From Tritrichomonas musculus (lineage: Eukaryota; Parabasalia; Tritrichomonadida; Tritrichomonadidae), in NCBI GenBank assembly GCA_039105265.1, contig JAPFFF010000005.1:1302001-1366000 (forward strand): a stretch of 64,000 bases of DNA, in the 5' to 3' direction. The first letter of the stretch is position 1, and every line of letters starts with the position of its first letter. The notes beneath the pieces are model-generated. The model was not told the DNA's origin and did no database searches. It saw only the letters and a list, made by a program, of their open reading frames with translations. Made by a program: the position numbers and the translations under genes. Shown here one piece after another: positions 28,492 through 61,265 of the stretch.

Positions 28492-29831
28492 ATGGAAGCA
28501 AACGATTTGACGCCAAATTCTTTAGATTATTCAGGTTGGTTAAAGAAAAAAGGAACTAACCAGGGTTTATGGCATAAGCGTTTTGTTTACATATCTCAAA
28601 CTTCTCTGTTTTTTTTTTTTTTTAAATCTAACATTACAGAGTGATTGCTAAAAAGGAAGATGGTTCAGTCATTGATCAAGTAATTCCATTAACAAAGGAA
28701 ACAAAAGTTGAAATAGTTGAGGGTGCAACACCAAGATTTATTGTTGAAAATTCTGAATCTGAATCAGTCCTTCTTTCTTCGAATTCCAACGAAGAAATCA
28801 ATCGTTGGGTAACTGTTATTAAAGGATCAACAGAACCCCTACCTTCCTTATCAATGGACCTTTTTGATATAGTTTCTGTTATTGGCAGAGGTTTTTATGG
28901 AAAAGTAATGCTTTGTAAGAAAAAAGATACAGGTGAAATTTTTGCAATTAAATCCATTAGAAAATCCAGATTAATTGAAACAGGAAAAACAAAATCAATT
29001 ATTACTGAACGAAACATAATGATGAGGGCTCATCACCCATTCATAGTCAATCTTTGTTTTGCTTTTCAAACTGAATCAAAATTTTATTTTGGTATGGAGT
29101 ATGTTCCAGGAGGTGAATTATTTTACCACATGGAAAGATTGCAACAAATTCAAATTGATGATGCCCGTTTATATGTTGCTGAAATAGGTCTTGCACTTGA
29201 TTATCTTCACTCACTTGGTATTATTTATCGCGATCTCAAACCAGAAAATATCATACTTGATAGAAATGGGCATGTTAAAATCACAGACTTTGGTCTTTCC
29301 AAAGAAACTGATTCCACGGATGAAACGGCTTCAACTTTTTGTGGAACTGCAGAATATTTAGCTCCAGAACTTGTTCTTCAAGTACCTTATAGCTATCCTG
29401 TTGATATTTGGGCTCTTGGTATTCTTACTTATGAAATGATATTAGGAACTACTCCATTTTATCATGAAAATAATTCACGAATGTTATCAAAAATTGTTTC
29501 TAATGACCCCGAATTTCCACCTGGACTTGACATTCGAATTATTGACTTTATACAGAAAATGCTAACAAAGGATCAACACAAAAGGCCTAAATTTAGTGAA
29601 ATGATGAGTCATCCTTTCTTTGAGGGATTTGATTGGGATGGTATATATAAAAGAGAATATAGACCTAACTTCATTCCTCAAATTAAAGATATTCTAATTG
29701 CCAATAATTTTGATAAAGATTTCACAAATGAATTGCCAGCTGATTCCTATGTTGCTCCTCCAATTGAAGAAAGCGGAAATGTTCCTGGCTTTTCATATAC
29801 ATCAGTAAGTATTAATAACTTACAAGTGTAA
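28492..29831 (+). CDS. PH-domain AGC kinase (Akt/PKB-like), two exons
   Basis: The exons are 28492-28607 and 28640-29831, giving 435 residues. The PH domain (about 10-105) spans the intron: YSGWLKKKGTNQGLWHKRFV, a lysine-rich turn after the junction, and EEINRWVTVI. The kinase domain (about 120-375) shows GRGFYGKV, FAIKSIRK, HRDLKPEN-type YRDLKPEN, DFGLSKE and an activation loop with STFCGTAEYLAPE. A C-terminal hydrophobic motif (PGFSYTS) ends the protein, as in Akt/S6K-type kinases. The PH domain suggests recruitment by phosphoinositides. Without splicing, the reading frame breaks after a run of 15 T, inside the PH domain. Start ATG is preceded by TTCAAAAAATATT. Confidence 0.85.
28608..28639 (+). 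other. 32-nt spliceosomal intron in the AGC kinase
   Basis: The predicted intron runs GT, then 15 T in total, AAA, and ends TCTAACATTACAG. Removing it joins codon CT|A in frame and restores a continuous PH domain strand. The 3' end resembles the Trichomonas intron signal ACTAACACACAG, and it matches the intron at 37852-37877 in this window. The 5' site GTTTTT is unlike the usual GTATGT. Confidence 0.75.
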
Positions 29832-37532: not shown

Positions 37533-38713
37533 ATGGATTTAAAGCTTTTATCGTGTTTTGGTGAGCATTCTGCAAATACAAATACAAATGATAATGACAC
37601 GATTGAGCAACTTTCATTTAGTCAGTGCGATAGATTTATAGCGTCAGGTGATCGTGGAGGTAATATAAATATATACAGAATTAAAGAAACAGGAAGGGCG
37701 CGGTCCCCTCTTAATTTTTTGTTAGCAACTAAATTTTGTGCTTTTCAAAATGATTTTGATCCATTTCGGAATGATATGAGGAATCAAAAAATTAACTGTT
37801 TGCAATTTCTCCCAAAATATTCTTTAAATCCTTTTTTGCTTGTTAGTAATCGTATTTTTTTATATTCTAACCCACAGAGTATGACATAAAATTATTAAAA
37901 ATTAGACTAGATTCAATGATCGCATGGAAAAGAGTTGAAGATGGTTTTCCAACTCCAAACAGAATTACAGAGAAAGTAAATGTGGAGCAATGTGATCTTT
38001 TCTTAGATCCCTATGCAGAAAATATTTGTAAAATTTTATGTTTGCAAGATCAATCATCATTTCTAGAGATTGAAGCTTCTTCAGCTAAAATGTGGAATAT
38101 TGATTATCATCAGCCAAAGCCTTTTGTACTGTTCCAGAATTACAAAGATGAAATAACTGCTGCTGCATTAGATCCATCTCAACCGAATGTTTTTGCATTT
38201 TCCGATGATACAGGATCTGTAAAGCTTTTTGATATATCATCAAATTCTATTATTAATACGTTTTCAACATCCGAATTTGGTGATGATCAATATTCTGATT
38301 TGAGTGTCACATCAGTTAAATATAAGCCCAGTGGAGTTCTTTTTGCCACACGCTCATTTACCCACCTCCAAGTATGGGATACAAGAAATAATAATAAACC
38401 TTTGGCTTCGCAAAAAGTTCAAAGCTATCCTGAAAGAAGTAATTATGCGCGTATTGGTGATTCGCCGCATGATAACTTTGGTTCTCTTTTTTTATCTTCA
38501 GATGAAATTTATTCTGGAACATTTGGTCAAATTTTTATATCTTGGGATTGGAAAAATTCTGTTGTTATAAGGCATAAAGCATCAAGAAGACCCACTGCAA
38601 ATATTGATTCGCAAGTTGATTTTACAAAGAAAGTCTCAAAAATTACCGTTAATCATTCTGGTAATGTTCTTGGGGTTGCTTCAACTTCATCGCTGTTTTT
38701 TTATCAATTATAA
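37533..38713 (+). CDS. PP2A B55-type regulatory subunit (WD40), two exons
   Basis: Exons 37533-37851 and 37878-38713 give 384 residues. The order of blocks follows the B55 propeller: IEQLSFSQCDRFIASGDRGGNINIYR, DFDPFRNDMRNQKINCLQFL, then after the junction DIKLLKIR, a WD strand SSAKMWNIDY, VFAFSDDTGSVKLFD, SVTSVKYKPSGVLFATRSF and LQVWDTRNNNKPL. The protein is shorter than animal B55 (about 447 residues) and divergent. It would target PP2A to substrates. The frame is interrupted unless a 26-nt intron is removed; the joined reading gives a normal WD strand. Confidence 0.8.
37852..37877 (+). other. 26-nt spliceosomal intron in the B55-like gene
   Basis: The predicted intron begins GTATTTTTTT and ends TCTAACCCACAG. 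Removal restores the frame so that exon 1 continues directly into a DIKLLKI strand of the WD propeller. The 3' motif is one to two bases from the canonical Trichomonas ACTAACACACAG. At 26 nt it is among the shortest plausible spliceosomal introns. Confidence 0.8.
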
Positions 38714-51963: not shown

Positions 51964-53976
51964 TTATATTGGCAAAAGTTCTCCATATGATGGACCATAA
52001 GTAATTTTGCATGGAATTGGCACTGTAAGGCCAATTTGGTCAGAACATTCTGCACTTGATTTCAAAGAATTGCATAAATCATCAAAATCTTTGGTTCCTG
52101 GTTTAATTTTTGTCCTAAAGAGCCATTCATCATGGAGCTGAAGAAGTGGCTCTATCAAACCTCCACATTTTTTCATTATTTGGAGTAGAGCAAATTTCAC
52201 AAAATCTGCAGCACTTCCTTGTATTTTGGTATTAATTGCCATTCTTTGATCTCTTTTCCGTTCAATGGCATTGTTACTCTGAATATTTGGCAAAAGCCTC
52301 TTTTTTCCACTTAAGGTTTGGACGTATCCATCTTTTGTTGCAAGAGCTGTTGTATTGGTAACAAAAGTTCTAATTCCTGGGAATGTTTTAAGTACTGCTT
52401 CAAGTTTTTGGCCTTTTTCAATTCCATCTTTTGTCCATCCTTTACCATATATTGTTGCATAAACAGCTTGCTTTATTTCTTCTCTTTGCTTTGATGTGAT
52501 TAGATCAATAGAGTTAACGTTATAGATTATCTGAGCAATATGTGAATGTAAATCTATTTCTGGTTGTGAACAAAGAGTACAAAAACTAGGATCCCTCGAA
52601 TAATGAGCTAAAATTCGCAATTCGAGTTGTGAATAATCGAGTGAAAGTAATATGTACTCTGAAGAAATGCATTTGGAATAAAATATTGATTGATCATCAG
52701 CAGGATTTGAATTAAAAGAATCGTTTGCAAGTTGGTTAGTTGGGCATGGTATAAAAAATGACCTGATATTTGTATCAAAGAAGTTTTCTTTGTTTTTTGG
52801 AATAGAGTCTCCTTTCTTAACTTGCTGGCTTGGAATGTTTTGAAGATTCGGAGATTTGGTAGAAATTCTTCCTGTCACTGTTGAGCAAACCATAAATATT
52901 GGATGAAGCCCTCCGTTTTCATCAGCAAAATCAGTAAATGAGAGCCAATTTGAAATTATTTTTTGTATTTTACGATATTGCAGTATTTTTTTTGCAATTG
53001 GATGATTAATTTTTTCTAAAACCATTGAATTAGTAGATGAGAATTCTTTATGAACTGTAACTCTATGACGAGAATCAATAGAAAATGTATTTTGAGGATT
53101 TGAATCAGGTGGTTGTATATGAAGATGATTGAATAAAATGTCGCTAACATCAAAAGGAGATAATATATTGAACTCGCATCCCGATATAGCGTATATTTCT
53201 TTCTCTAACTGCGACAAAATAGTTGATAATCTATTTTTTTCTTTTCCTATCTTATTAATATCTATAAACAATGAAGTCTGATGCATGTTTCCTAACAATC
53301 TAGCATGAGGTATTTCTATTTCATTTATCCATTTTAAATATTGTGATTGGGAAAGCAATGGTTCAAATATTGCTTTAAAAACTTCAAATAAATGAGGTAT
53401 TAATGTCGATGAATCCAAATTTGCAGAATTGTCTAACTTTTGATCCAAAATGTTCATTGAAACCAAATTTTCTGATTTTTCCAAGCATTCAGTATTGCAA
53501 AACCAAAGAGAAATAATTGGATCGAAAAAAAGAATTTCTGAACGAAAAAATGGATCGACAGAAAAAACCCATGAAGAATTTGGCAAAAAATGAACGCAGT
53601 TTTCCGAAAAATGAATGTCAGCTGTATCTCCATAAACAATACTATCGCCATTGATTGTGTGAATAATAACTTTAGTTATATTATTATCAGATTGGATTTT
53701 ATGTTTTCCGTATATTAAATTTGTTAGATTTTCTGTTTGAACTTCCCAAATAATATATCCATCAATATCATAATGAATGATTTTAGTTTGTCCTAAGTAT
53801 TCTTCATTTGCATTTGAGAAATTGTCAATATTTAATTCATCAAATTGGTCACTATCAGAGTTCAGAAAAGAATGTTGGTGGGCAGACTGCCCTTCAATAG
53901 GAAGAGGAGGAATCTCCCCTTTCCAGCTAGGAAAAACAAATTTGAATAAGAGCTCATATGGAAATTCGTCAGTCAT
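51964..53976 (-). CDS. Family A DNA polymerase (Pol theta/nu type) without helicase domain
   Basis: The 670-residue protein ends in a family A polymerase domain. Motif A is SLDYSQLELRILAHYSRDP (about residue 445). Motif B is REEIKQAVYATIYGKG, with the conserved Arg, Lys and Tyr-Gly and a tyrosine at the Taq Phe667 position. Motif C is LQLHDEWLF (about residue 613). RMAINTKIQGSAAD, NLQNIPSQ and GRISTKSPN are also typical. The motif spacing and KQ.xY..IYG form fit Pol theta and Pol nu. The first about 300 residues are poorly conserved and no superfamily 2 helicase precedes it. Expected role: nuclear repair or translesion synthesis. Its 5' end is close to a divergent PHD-finger gene. Confidence 0.9.
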   Translation of the reverse strand: MTDEFPYELLFKFVFPSWKGEIPPLPIEGQSAHQHSFLNSDSDQFDELNIDNFSNANEEYLGQTKIIHYDIDGYIIWEVQTENLTNLIYGKHKIQSDNNITKVIIHTINGDSIVYGDTADIHFSENCVHFLPNSSWVFSVDPFFRSEILFFDPIISLWFCNTECLEKSENLVSMNILDQKLDNSANLDSSTLIPHLFEVFKAIFEPLLSQSQYLKWINEIEIPHARLLGNMHQTSLFIDINKIGKEKNRLSTILSQLEKEIYAISGCEFNILSPFDVSDILFNHLHIQPPDSNPQNTFSIDSRHRVTVHKEFSSTNSMVLEKINHPIAKKILQYRKIQKIISNWLSFTDFADENGGLHPIFMVCSTVTGRISTKSPNLQNIPSQQVKKGDSIPKNKENFFDTNIRSFFIPCPTNQLANDSFNSNPADDQSIFYSKCISSEYILLSLDYSQLELRILAHYSRDPSFCTLCSQPEIDLHSHIAQIIYNVNSIDLITSKQREEIKQAVYATIYGKGWTKDGIEKGQKLEAVLKTFPGIRTFVTNTTALATKDGYVQTLSGKKRLLPNIQSNNAIERKRDQRMAINTKIQGSAADFVKFALLQIMKKCGGLIEPLLQLHDEWLFRTKIKPGTKDFDDLCNSLKSSAECSDQIGLTVPIPCKITYGPSYGELLPI

Positions 53977-57707: not shown

Positions 57708-60700
57708 ATGCAAGTTCAAGAAAAGTGGAAACAAATTCACACACATCACGAACAAAAGATTCCTGTTTACGCCGTTGCTATTAAGCCTGACCAAAAACAA
57801 TTACTCGCCGCAGAAGGTCCTCGCTTAAATATTTATGATCTCAAAGATGGAACTATCATCGCAAACCCTCGTAAGCATCGTAGCGCTATTTACGCTATCG
57901 CAATTTCATCGCATGATCCATACTTTGCTACTGCTGGAACAGATGACGTTGTTATCATCTGGAATTCAGATCAAAATAAAGGTATCGTTAAATTCTCTAT
58001 CAATGGATCTGCATCATGTTTAACTTTCAGCCCTGTTGCTCCAAATCTATTAGCATGCGCTGGTACAGAACTTTCAATTTGGCACCCAAAGATTAAGCAA
58101 GTTGTTCCATTTGCCGTTGCAGCAAAAGTCCTTTGTGCAGCATGGGCACCAGATGGGAAAGCTTTTGCAATTGGTCTTATTAACGGAACCGTTTCTGTCC
58201 GTAATTCTGAAAATAACCAAGAAATTTATACGCACCACCTTCAAGTCCCAGTTTTTGCAATGTCATGGTCGAATGATCTTCTTCTGGTTGGTGACTGGGA
58301 TAACAAACTTTCAATTCATAAACCGCGAGATTCTCAATTATTGTCAAATGAAAACTTACCAGCTCAACCCTCAATGATTTTGAATTTTCAATCGAATTTG
58401 CTTATAACAGATATTTCAGGAAAAGTTTGTCTTTACAACGATGATGGTCAATTACTTTCAGAAGTTGCTGACGTGAAAGAATGGATTTGGTCTGCTTCAG
58501 TTAGTCCTGATGGATATTTAGCTCTGGGGCTCGATGATGGAACAGTTCATTTATATTCGCTTGGTCTAAGACCAGTATACTCGCAATATCGAACTGCTTT
58601 TGCCTTACGAACTGAACTCACAAAAGTGCAATTAAGAATTCTCGAAACTGATTTAATGGAAGACGTTGAATTTATCAAGCCAGTCCAAGGTGTCTCGGTT
58701 ACCGAAACAATGATTGCAATTCGTTTTGCAGATGAAGTGTCAGCATATTCATTTGAAAATATTAATGGGCATCTTGAATTAAATAAATTTGGCCGCTTTG
58801 ACACTAATTTTAATTGTAACAAATTCTTCATATTTTCCAATAATTATGTCTTTTGTTTTGACAAAAGTATTAAAATTTACTCACAAAATGGAGCGTTCAC
58901 ACGCGAATTCAACTTCTCTGCAAACGTTAATGATGCAGCTATTTGTTCAACAGTTCCAGGAATGGAAGGAATTGTTGCAGGACTTGAAGATGGACAAATT
59001 GTCCAATTGTTTGTTAATCATCGATTTACGCATGTTTTAGTTAAACATGATAAGCCAATCAAAAACATCGCTGTTTCAATGATGCGATCAAAGATTTCTG
59101 TTGTTGATTCAGACAGAAGGTGTTGTGTTTACGATGCAATCAGTGCAGCTCTTCTATACATTGAAGAAGGAGTTGATGTTTGTGCCTGGAATGAATTGTG
59201 TGATGATTTAATAGCATTCAGTGATGGAGAAAAAGTTTCTGTTAAGCCATATGATCTTCAAAGAATATCAGTCAATTTCAAAGGTCAATTAATTCGTTTT
59301 TCAGGTCTTACTGTATATGCAATCAATGGAACAGCACTTTCGGAAATAGATGTCTCACTTGCAACCGCAGTTAAAACATTGTCTAGAGCTCTTGACTTTG
59401 GACGCGCTTATGAGCTTGCTGCTTTTGGTTCAACTGAAGATAATTGGAATGAACTTGCAGATGCTGCTCTTCGAGCCCGCGAGATGAACATTGCTGTTAA
59501 ATCTGCAGCACATTCACGAAACATTAAGTTGCTTCACTTTATCGAACAAATGTCTCATCTCATTACAGATTCCAAATTCACACAAGATCATCTTAATGCT
59601 GAAGTCGATGCATGGACTGGTAACTTTGATTCTGCAGCCCGTATATGGACTCGTTTAGGAGAGAATGAACGAGCTGTCCAAATGTACTTTGATCTTCGAC
59701 AATTTGACAAATTGAAGAAATTCTTAACAGGTGATCGTATGAAAAAGTTTGCCATTCAACAAGCAGAATCCTTCCAAGCGATGGGCGATCTCGATCTTGC
59801 CGCCGAGATGTACATCGTTGGAGGAGAAGCTCTTAAATCAGTCACATTATTAAATGAAGCCAATATGATTGATTCATTATGCGAAGTATCAAAGAAAATT
59901 GATCCCTCGCAAACCGAGGCTCTTCAATATGCAGCTGATGCTTTGATGAAACATGACATGGTCAAAGAAGCAACTAACTTATTAGCTCAATTAGATGATG
60001 TTTCATCACTTGCTAAAGTTCGAGTTTATACAAAAGATTGGAATGAAGCACTTTCTCTTGCTAAGATGCATCCAGCCTTACTTCCAGAAGTCTTCCTTCC
60101 TTTTGCTCGTCACTTATTCGAGGATGATCAGTACTTTGAATCACTTGTTTCATTCTTCATAGCTGGTCGATTTGATGAAGCCCTTAAATCATTAAACGTA
60201 CTTCTTGATAATGCAATTAAAATGAGACGTTATGAAGATGTTTCTTTCTTCCTTTATGGAAGGACACTTGGTTTAGCTTCTGCTTGTGAAGATCAAGAAG
60301 AAGCTAATTTAATTGTTGAAAGTGGTCTTCAGCTCGCTCGTGCCTACAGCGCTTTTGGACGTCTAAAAGAAGATACTACATCGCCTTTCACTGTTCGTGA
60401 ACGAGGAATGTCTTTCTATTTAGCAAGATATGTAACTGCATATTTGAATAGTGTAAGAAGAGGTGAATTTAAACAACGCTATATGCATTCTTTAAATGAC
60501 GAATTAATCAGTGGAATTTCTTTCCCAGAAGCTCTTTTTGCCCTTTTCAATGAGTCTGAAAGCGTTGGTGAATATAGATTAATGAAATGGTGTGCTGAAC
60601 AACTTTCACTTTTCATGGTTCCTCCAGCTGTTGAAGAAGCTGTTGATTATGCAATTTTAAGAACTTCTGGAATGAACGATGATGAAGAATCTGAATGTTG

Positions 60701-61265
60701 TGAAAGATGCGGATCTAGATTATTTGCATCTAGTGAAGGTCCCTTACTTTGGTGTAATGAATGTAAATGCCCAATTGTTTTCTCAAGTTATTCATTTAAA
60801 GTACTTCCTTTAGTCCCAGTTAAGGTTGATGGAGTAACTGAAGATGATGCAAAAGAGCTTTTGAAATCTGACCCTCCAATTGATGCCCAAATTGCAGATA
60901 TATCAGATTTAATTGATCCTTCTCATGCAATAGATGGCGAGGAAAGGCCAGTGCTTAATCATGATAGTTTAAGAAGGATTGACCCAAGTATCGTAATTAT
61001 GTGTGAATGGAAGAAAAATGCAAAAGTACCACCTTCATACATATTAAATCCTTCATTAGAATCTATTCATAAATGTAGAGGATGTAATTCCATTTTCAAT
61101 GATGTCGATTTCGAATTGACTTTCTTAGAAAATGGATCATGTCCACTTTGTAAAACTCCTCTTGATCATGAAGCTGAAGGTGATTTCGCAGATACCATGG
61201 ATTCTTACTCCGATTTATTGAAACAATTGCGAGACTTTGCAGATGCTGTTCCTATCGATTTTTAA
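57708..61265 (+). CDS. IFT122: IFT122, IFT-A core subunit
   Basis: The 1185-residue product has the IFT122 plan. A first WD40 propeller (about residues 1-290) shows VYAVAIKPDQKQLLAAEGPRL, IYDLKDGT, YAIAISSHDPYFATAGTDD, VIIWNSD and SIWHPKIKQV. A second propeller (about 300-550) and a helical TPR-like solenoid (about 555-985) follow. The C-terminus has two zinc-binding clusters, CCERCGSRL...WCNECKCP (about 994-1020) and CRGCNSIF...CPLCKTP (about 1121-1150), as in IFT122/IFT-A proteins. It works in retrograde intraflagellar transport and ciliary membrane cargo entry. The gene is uninterrupted. Codon choice is more GC-rich at synonymous sites than most neighbours, suggesting high expression or stronger selection. 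Confidence 0.93.
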   Translation: MQVQEKWKQIHTHHEQKIPVYAVAIKPDQKQLLAAEGPRLNIYDLKDGTIIANPRKHRSAIYAIAISSHDPYFATAGTDDVVIIWNSDQNKGIVKFSINGSASCLTFSPVAPNLLACAGTELSIWHPKIKQVVPFAVAAKVLCAAWAPDGKAFAIGLINGTVSVRNSENNQEIYTHHLQVPVFAMSWSNDLLLVGDWDNKLSIHKPRDSQLLSNENLPAQPSMILNFQSNLLITDISGKVCLYNDDGQLLSEVADVKEWIWSASVSPDGYLALGLDDGTVHLYSLGLRPVYSQYRTAFALRTELTKVQLRILETDLMEDVEFIKPVQGVSVTETMIAIRFADEVSAYSFENINGHLELNKFGRFDTNFNCNKFFIFSNNYVFCFDKSIKIYSQNGAFTREFNFSANVNDAAICSTVPGMEGIVAGLEDGQIVQLFVNHRFTHVLVKHDKPIKNIAVSMMRSKISVVDSDRRCCVYDAISAALLYIEEGVDVCAWNELCDDLIAFSDGEKVSVKPYDLQRISVNFKGQLIRFSGLTVYAINGTALSEIDVSLATAVKTLSRALDFGRAYELAAFGSTEDNWNELADAALRAREMNIAVKSAAHSRNIKLLHFIEQMSHLITDSKFTQDHLNAEVDAWTGNFDSAARIWTRLGENERAVQMYFDLRQFDKLKKFLTGDRMKKFAIQQAESFQAMGDLDLAAEMYIVGGEALKSVTLLNEANMIDSLCEVSKKIDPSQTEALQYAADALMKHDMVKEATNLLAQLDDVSSLAKVRVYTKDWNEALSLAKMHPALLPEVFLPFARHLFEDDQYFESLVSFFIAGRFDEALKSLNVLLDNAIKMRRYEDVSFFLYGRTLGLASACEDQEEANLIVESGLQLARAYSAFGRLKEDTTSPFTVRERGMSFYLARYVTAYLNSVRRGEFKQRYMHSLNDELISGISFPEALFALFNESESVGEYRLMKWCAEQLSLFMVPPAVEEAVDYAILRTSGMNDDEESECCERCGSRLFASSEGPLLWCNECKCPIVFSSYSFKVLPLVPVKVDGVTEDDAKELLKSDPPIDAQIADISDLIDPSHAIDGEERPVLNHDSLRRIDPSIVIMCEWKKNAKVPPSYILNPSLESIHKCRGCNSIFNDVDFELTFLENGSCPLCKTPLDHEAEGDFADTMDSYSDLLKQLRDFADAVPIDF

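Follow-up and report, generated by a model that had tools for sequence, protein, structure and literature searches.

A probable 26-nt spliceosomal intron in a PP2A B55-like gene of Tritrichomonas musculus

The B55-like gene and its predicted intron

The window analysed here is a 64,000-nt stretch of the genome of Tritrichomonas musculus, a protist commensal in the mouse gut. It holds an IFT122-like gene (57708-61265) and a family A DNA polymerase gene (51964-53976), each a single long open reading frame (ORF), and one gene matching IBP39, an initiator-binding protein typical of trichomonads. It also carries, on the forward strand, a gene for a PP2A B55-like regulatory subunit in two predicted exons. 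Exon 1 (37533..37851, + strand) comprises codons 1-106 and the first base of codon 107 and is covered by the relatives P0010-P0014, while exon 2 (37878..38713, + strand), delimited by its ORF and by homology, extends through the stop codon. In the unspliced sequence the ORF starting at 37533 stops at 37889, and the downstream ORF is in a different frame. Joining 37851 to 37878 yields a protein of 384 aa, with a stop codon ending at 38713, that is colinear with PP2A B55alpha (phmmer against 3dw8_B, whole-sequence E 6.9e-20, with query 15-343 matched to 22-383); an extra C-terminal stretch in the same comparison was too weak to count on its own. The joined protein also aligned with P0006 and P0007, two full-length 386-aa relatives, over the entire length of both. 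The colinear match and these relatives bear out the assignment of the host gene made in an earlier note on this DNA. A Pfam scan of the joined protein returned 17 WD40-type models, among which ANAPC4_WD40 alone was above cut-off and none was named B55. Since Pfam supplied WD40-type families only, the B55 assignment depends on the match to solved chains and on the label "protein phosphatase PP2A regulatory subunit B" that one source attaches to P0004, a relative from T. foetus.

Between the two exons lies a 26-nt segment, GTATTTTTTTATATTCTAACCCACAG (37852..37877, + strand), which we interpret as a phase-1 intron in codon 107 on the grounds of frame restoration, a gap-free junction, a break point shared with relatives, and a genome-wide class of similar segments. 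Its predicted 5' splice site, GTATTT (37852..37857, + strand), agrees with the GTWYWD pattern given in PMC12316389. At the other end, the sequence reads as a branch site, TCTAAC, fused to a 3' splice site, CCACAG (37866..37877, + strand). The putative branch A would be that at 37870 (+ strand), 7 nt before the intron end, by analogy with introns described in PMC6260720.

The earlier note held that excision removes exactly the segment that breaks the frame. Removal of the 26 nt does reopen the frame, but other GT..AG pairs do so as well, namely 37846-37877 (32 nt), 37842-37879 (38 nt), and several longer ones, so frame alone is no proof of the boundaries. The homology is what decides: the 26-nt join left no gap at the junction, either against B55alpha or against P0006 and P0007, whereas the conserved strand was shortened by 2 residues with the 32-nt join and by 4 residues with the 38-nt join. 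Homology, and not frame, is thus what fixes the predicted boundaries at 37852-37877, and sequence and homology together support both these boundaries and the 12-nt fused branch site and 3' splice site.

We consider it quite improbable that the same intron instead uses the 5' splice site GTAATC at 37846, or that both sites are in use. The resulting 32-nt version has an open frame and the same terminal AG, but it costs 2 residues of a strand that is otherwise gap-free against B55alpha, P0006, and P0007, and GTAATC deviates from the published GTWYWD at +4 and +6. The GTAATC site also lacks T at +6 and +7, whereas T occupies +6 to +8 in all 12 frame-restoring cases described below, which were picked with GTAT.

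With the upstream ORF as query we found five proteins, each a short N-terminal piece of 111-118 aa. In all five, the ORF ends 4-11 residues beyond the "..NR" that straddles C|GT, and the tails past NR are mostly an F/Y-rich run, as expected of a translated T-rich intron. One of the five, P0010, is 98% identical to the window ORF and has SNTQ in place of the window's SNPQ; this difference falls inside the predicted intron. Of the eight relatives found with the whole protein, six start 6-15 residues beyond codon 107, and one of these six is P0004, an annotated T. foetus protein of 266 aa. The longest contig was 12,549 for both P0011 and P0005 and 2,141 for both P0012 and P0008, and from this agreement P0011 and P0005 probably lie on one contig, as do P0012 and P0008. 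The break point shared by all five exon-1 relatives suggests that the intron position is probably conserved. The simplest reading, drawn from where the relatives' ORFs break, is that the intron is probably conserved in these relatives and was overlooked by gene prediction; about 120 N-terminal residues of the annotated P0004 were then probably lost through a missed intron. P0006 and P0007 may lack the intron, or they may be spliced predictions.

The same records bear on two explanations that do not involve an intron. An assembly error, for example in the run of seven Ts, could have produced a frameshift; T runs are numerous in the genome, and a small indel would change the frame too. Such an indel, however, would leave about nine surplus residues that are absent from B55alpha, P0006, and P0007, and the same-residue break recurs in five other records, including the nearly identical P0010, all of which makes this account highly improbable. 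We give still less credence, to the point of regarding it as barely tenable, to a decayed gene with a disabling insertion. While a pseudogene would likewise have a frame that is broken when unspliced, both exons are otherwise intact across 384 codons, exon 1 and the same break occur in one record at 98% identity and in four more at 55-69%, and the inserted 26 nt have a complete intron architecture.

Candidate introns of the same class in the window and the genome

A second predicted intron in the window, of 32 nt (GTTTTTTT...TCTAACATTACAG, 28608..28639, + strand), interrupts the PH-domain region of a PH/AGC-like kinase gene and contains a run of 15 T. Of six GTs within 120 nt of its end at 28639, only the one at 28608 gave an open frame. 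Excision of 28608-28639 produces a 453-aa protein (counted from the frame's first ATG) in which the PH match crosses the junction. The two window introns had been said to match at their 3' ends; the ends are indeed alike, but TCTAACATTACAG at 28608-28639 is one base longer. The pattern GT[AT]T-N4-24-TCTAAC-N1-4-CAG occurs twice in the window, at 37852-37877 and 28608-28639, compared to a mean of 0.125 (largest value 2) in 40 first-order Markov shuffles.

We scanned 193.4 Mb of the genome (746 contigs), using the reversed pattern as a control. The scan that the earlier note had proposed showed no enrichment: TCTAACNNACAG was rarer than its reversed control (97 vs. 227 matches), as was the same scan in the form GTAT..CTAACNNACAG (14 vs. 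118). Among 41 TCTAACNNACAG places that we tested (40 of the 97 matches and the window's own), only the B55 intron and one other locus, L015, connect two long frames that are interrupted in the unspliced sequence. We excluded the other 56 places on visual inspection because they were probably copies of repeats, TCTAACCAACAG or TCTAACAAACAG in most cases. Copies of TCTAACCAACAG were seen paired on opposite strands with about 13-17 kb between them (we counted 11 such pairs, on 10 contigs; e.g., G000:C1:6322250 and 6336386), an arrangement that resembles the ends of a large mobile element.

The relaxed pattern GTATN{4,24}TCTAACN{1,4}CAG was not enriched in the genome either, with 131 matches compared to 387 for the reversed control. 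A near-identical 37-nt segment, GTATAGTTAATTCGTG...TCTAACGCAG, made up 11 of the 100 listed rows of this pattern (e.g., G000:C1:4699986-4700022); it may belong to a repeat or be the intron of a gene present in many copies. Only the T-rich subset GTATN{2,14}TTTCTAACNNCAG, a form absent from the B55 intron, was enriched, with 16 genome matches compared to 3 reversed.

Frame restoration was assessed for 71 distinct candidates from 100 loci and the window piece, with identical strings counted once. A candidate passed if 80 or more codons were open downstream, if an ATG lay 8 or more codons upstream, and if the unspliced segment was not itself crossed by a comparable open frame. The 71 consisted of 68 of the 100 rows for GTATN{4,24}TCTAACN{1,4}CAG (100 of the 131 matches being listed), the row on contig C37 of GTATN{2,14}TTTCTAACNNCAG, and two further segments in the same stretches. 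The remaining 32 rows, comprising repeat families and the majority of rows shorter than 20 or longer than about 38 nt, were dropped by eye. We called candidates T-rich when at least 60% of the bases between GTAT and TCTAAC were T.

The frame was restored in 12 of the 71 candidates, comprising 12 of 30 that were T-rich and none of 41 that were T-poor (Fisher P 6.8e-6, with the 0.6 cut-off picked after the data were seen and the rows picked by eye). A class of frame-restoring cases emerged only with the relaxed 3' end. Random deletions of the same length passed in 0.2% of trials on average and in 0.36% in the loci of the T-rich candidates, with the highest rates being 3.9% (L015) and 2.5% (the piece with the B55 gene). 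In the same loci and the window, none of 138 T-rich GT..CAG segments without CTAAC restored a frame, nor did any of the 43 that begin with GTAT or GTTT. The frame criterion was failed by 18 of the 30 T-rich candidates, some of which would be situated near a start codon. Among the GTATN{2,14}TTTCTAACNNCAG rows, 7 of 16 passed and 9 failed.

The 12 frame-restoring cases are 23-39 nt long, and each carries T at +6 through +8 as well as T before TCTAAC. The distance from the branch A to the intron end is 6 nt in seven cases, 7 nt in four, of which the B55 intron is one, and 8 nt in one; TCTAAC is followed by NNCAG in 7 of the 12. We scanned the joined proteins of six of these cases and of the kinase gene interrupted at 28608-28639, which is outside the 12. 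A Pfam match above cut-off spanned the junction in the kinase, in two Arf-family proteins, in a third Arf-like protein, and in a histone-fold protein. The match spanning the junction of a Snapin/KxDL-like protein was below cut-off, and that of an RRM-like protein stopped short of the junction. One of the Arf-family GTPases, L084 (on contig C11), was rebuilt as an Arl3-like protein with residues 1-176 of 177 aligned (E 1.7e-68). Its predicted intron has the same position and phase as that of the other, L101 (on C7), lying three residues ahead of the initial glycine in GLDNAGKTT, just upstream of the P-loop.

Relation to known short introns and proposed mechanism

Type B introns of Trichomonas vaginalis and T. 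stableri, as described in PMC6260720 and PMC12316389, are 23-28 nt long and have a degenerate 5' site, with TCTAAC fused to the 3' splice site and 7 or 8 nt separating the branch A from the intron end. The B55 intron resembles them in being a GT..AG intron of 26 nt, within the 23-28 nt range, and in its 5' site GTATTTTTT, which fits GTWYWD with T at +8 and +9 (PMC12316389). It further shares TCTAACCCACAG, in which TCTAAC has T rather than A or G in first place and the putative branch A is 7 nt from the intron end (PMC6260720), as well as a T-rich middle and the restoration of a conserved protein upon excision. It differs in that its TCTAAC-C-CACAG is one base, a C for A at -5, off the published TCTAACH{1,2}AACAG (PMC12316389), which we read as a search pattern and not a definition of type B, and in that its genus is Tritrichomonas and not Trichomonas. 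According to the same paper, T. stableri itself departs from the T. vaginalis motif. The B55 intron is almost certainly of the type B kind known from Trichomonas, found in another genus, and its 26 nt are no record.

Its other likenesses are more limited. Type A introns of T. vaginalis share the 12-nt fused branch and 3' block, with 7 nt after the branch A (PMC6260720), but are 56-196 nt long and carry RCTAACACAYAG (PMC12316389). Fused branch points and 3' splice sites are also described for Giardia in PMC6679479, but Giardia and Spironucleus belong to another lineage and have an extended, highly conserved 5' site, and many Giardia introns are trans-spliced. PMC2483917 deals with the strong conservation of the 3' block in eukaryotes that have few introns. 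The earlier note placed 26 nt near the lower size limit, which is only loosely true: the shortest introns cited in PMC12316389 are 23 nt in Trichomonas, 18 nt in Bigelowiella, and 15 nt in Stentor, the latter two in unrelated lineages that are comparable in extreme shortness, and a frame-restoring T. musculus case, L073, is 23 nt.

Table 1 of PMC12316389 names no product as B55, PP2A, or WD40 and lists 11 hosts with function unknown. PMC11978803 gives 2,500 T. musculus genes with introns; the B55-like gene may be one of them, and its intron may already be annotated. Within the parts of the open-access literature available to us, we found intron counts for T. musculus, T. foetus, and Histomonas but no catalogue of Tritrichomonas intron motifs.

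Taken with the homology at the junction, these likenesses make it very probable that 37852-37877, in the T. musculus PP2A B55-like gene, is one of the very short spliceosomal GT-AG introns known from trichomonads in kind. Judging from the sequence, the 26 nt would be spliced out in cells. By analogy with known introns, U1 and U6 would read GTATTT and U2 would pair with TCTAAC, and ordinary two-step splicing would follow, with the AG fixed at a short distance from the branch. Because this AG lies 7 nt past the putative branch adenosine, the branch site and the 3' splice site would act as one block, with no room for a polypyrimidine tract downstream of the branch. One compact block would take the place of a separate branch site, pyrimidine tract, and 3' splice site.

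We also favor, with more reserve, the view that T. musculus has a dialect of ultra-short introns, GTATNTTTT...TTCTAAC-N(2-4)-CAG, in which the usual spacing between the branch adenosine and the intron end is 6 nt. Such introns would occur in conserved genes, at positions kept both among tritrichomonad relatives and from one paralog to another, and would be missed by present annotation, as in the truncated B55 protein of T. foetus. The usual 6 nt of this proposed dialect contrasts with the 7 or 8 nt of published type B introns, among which PMC12316389 describes the shorter block only for the six shortest T. vaginalis introns. Since these introns are short of one base at -4, such a block has a precedent.

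The short-intron class would thus reach from Trichomonas into a different trichomonad genus, and the predicted intron bears on the limit to which a spliceosome can pack a branch site and a 3' splice site together. The results suggest that some gene models in that genus lack whole exons. A T-rich GTAT..TTCTAACNN(N)CAG that restores a frame could serve as a rule for scans that re-annotate such genomes.
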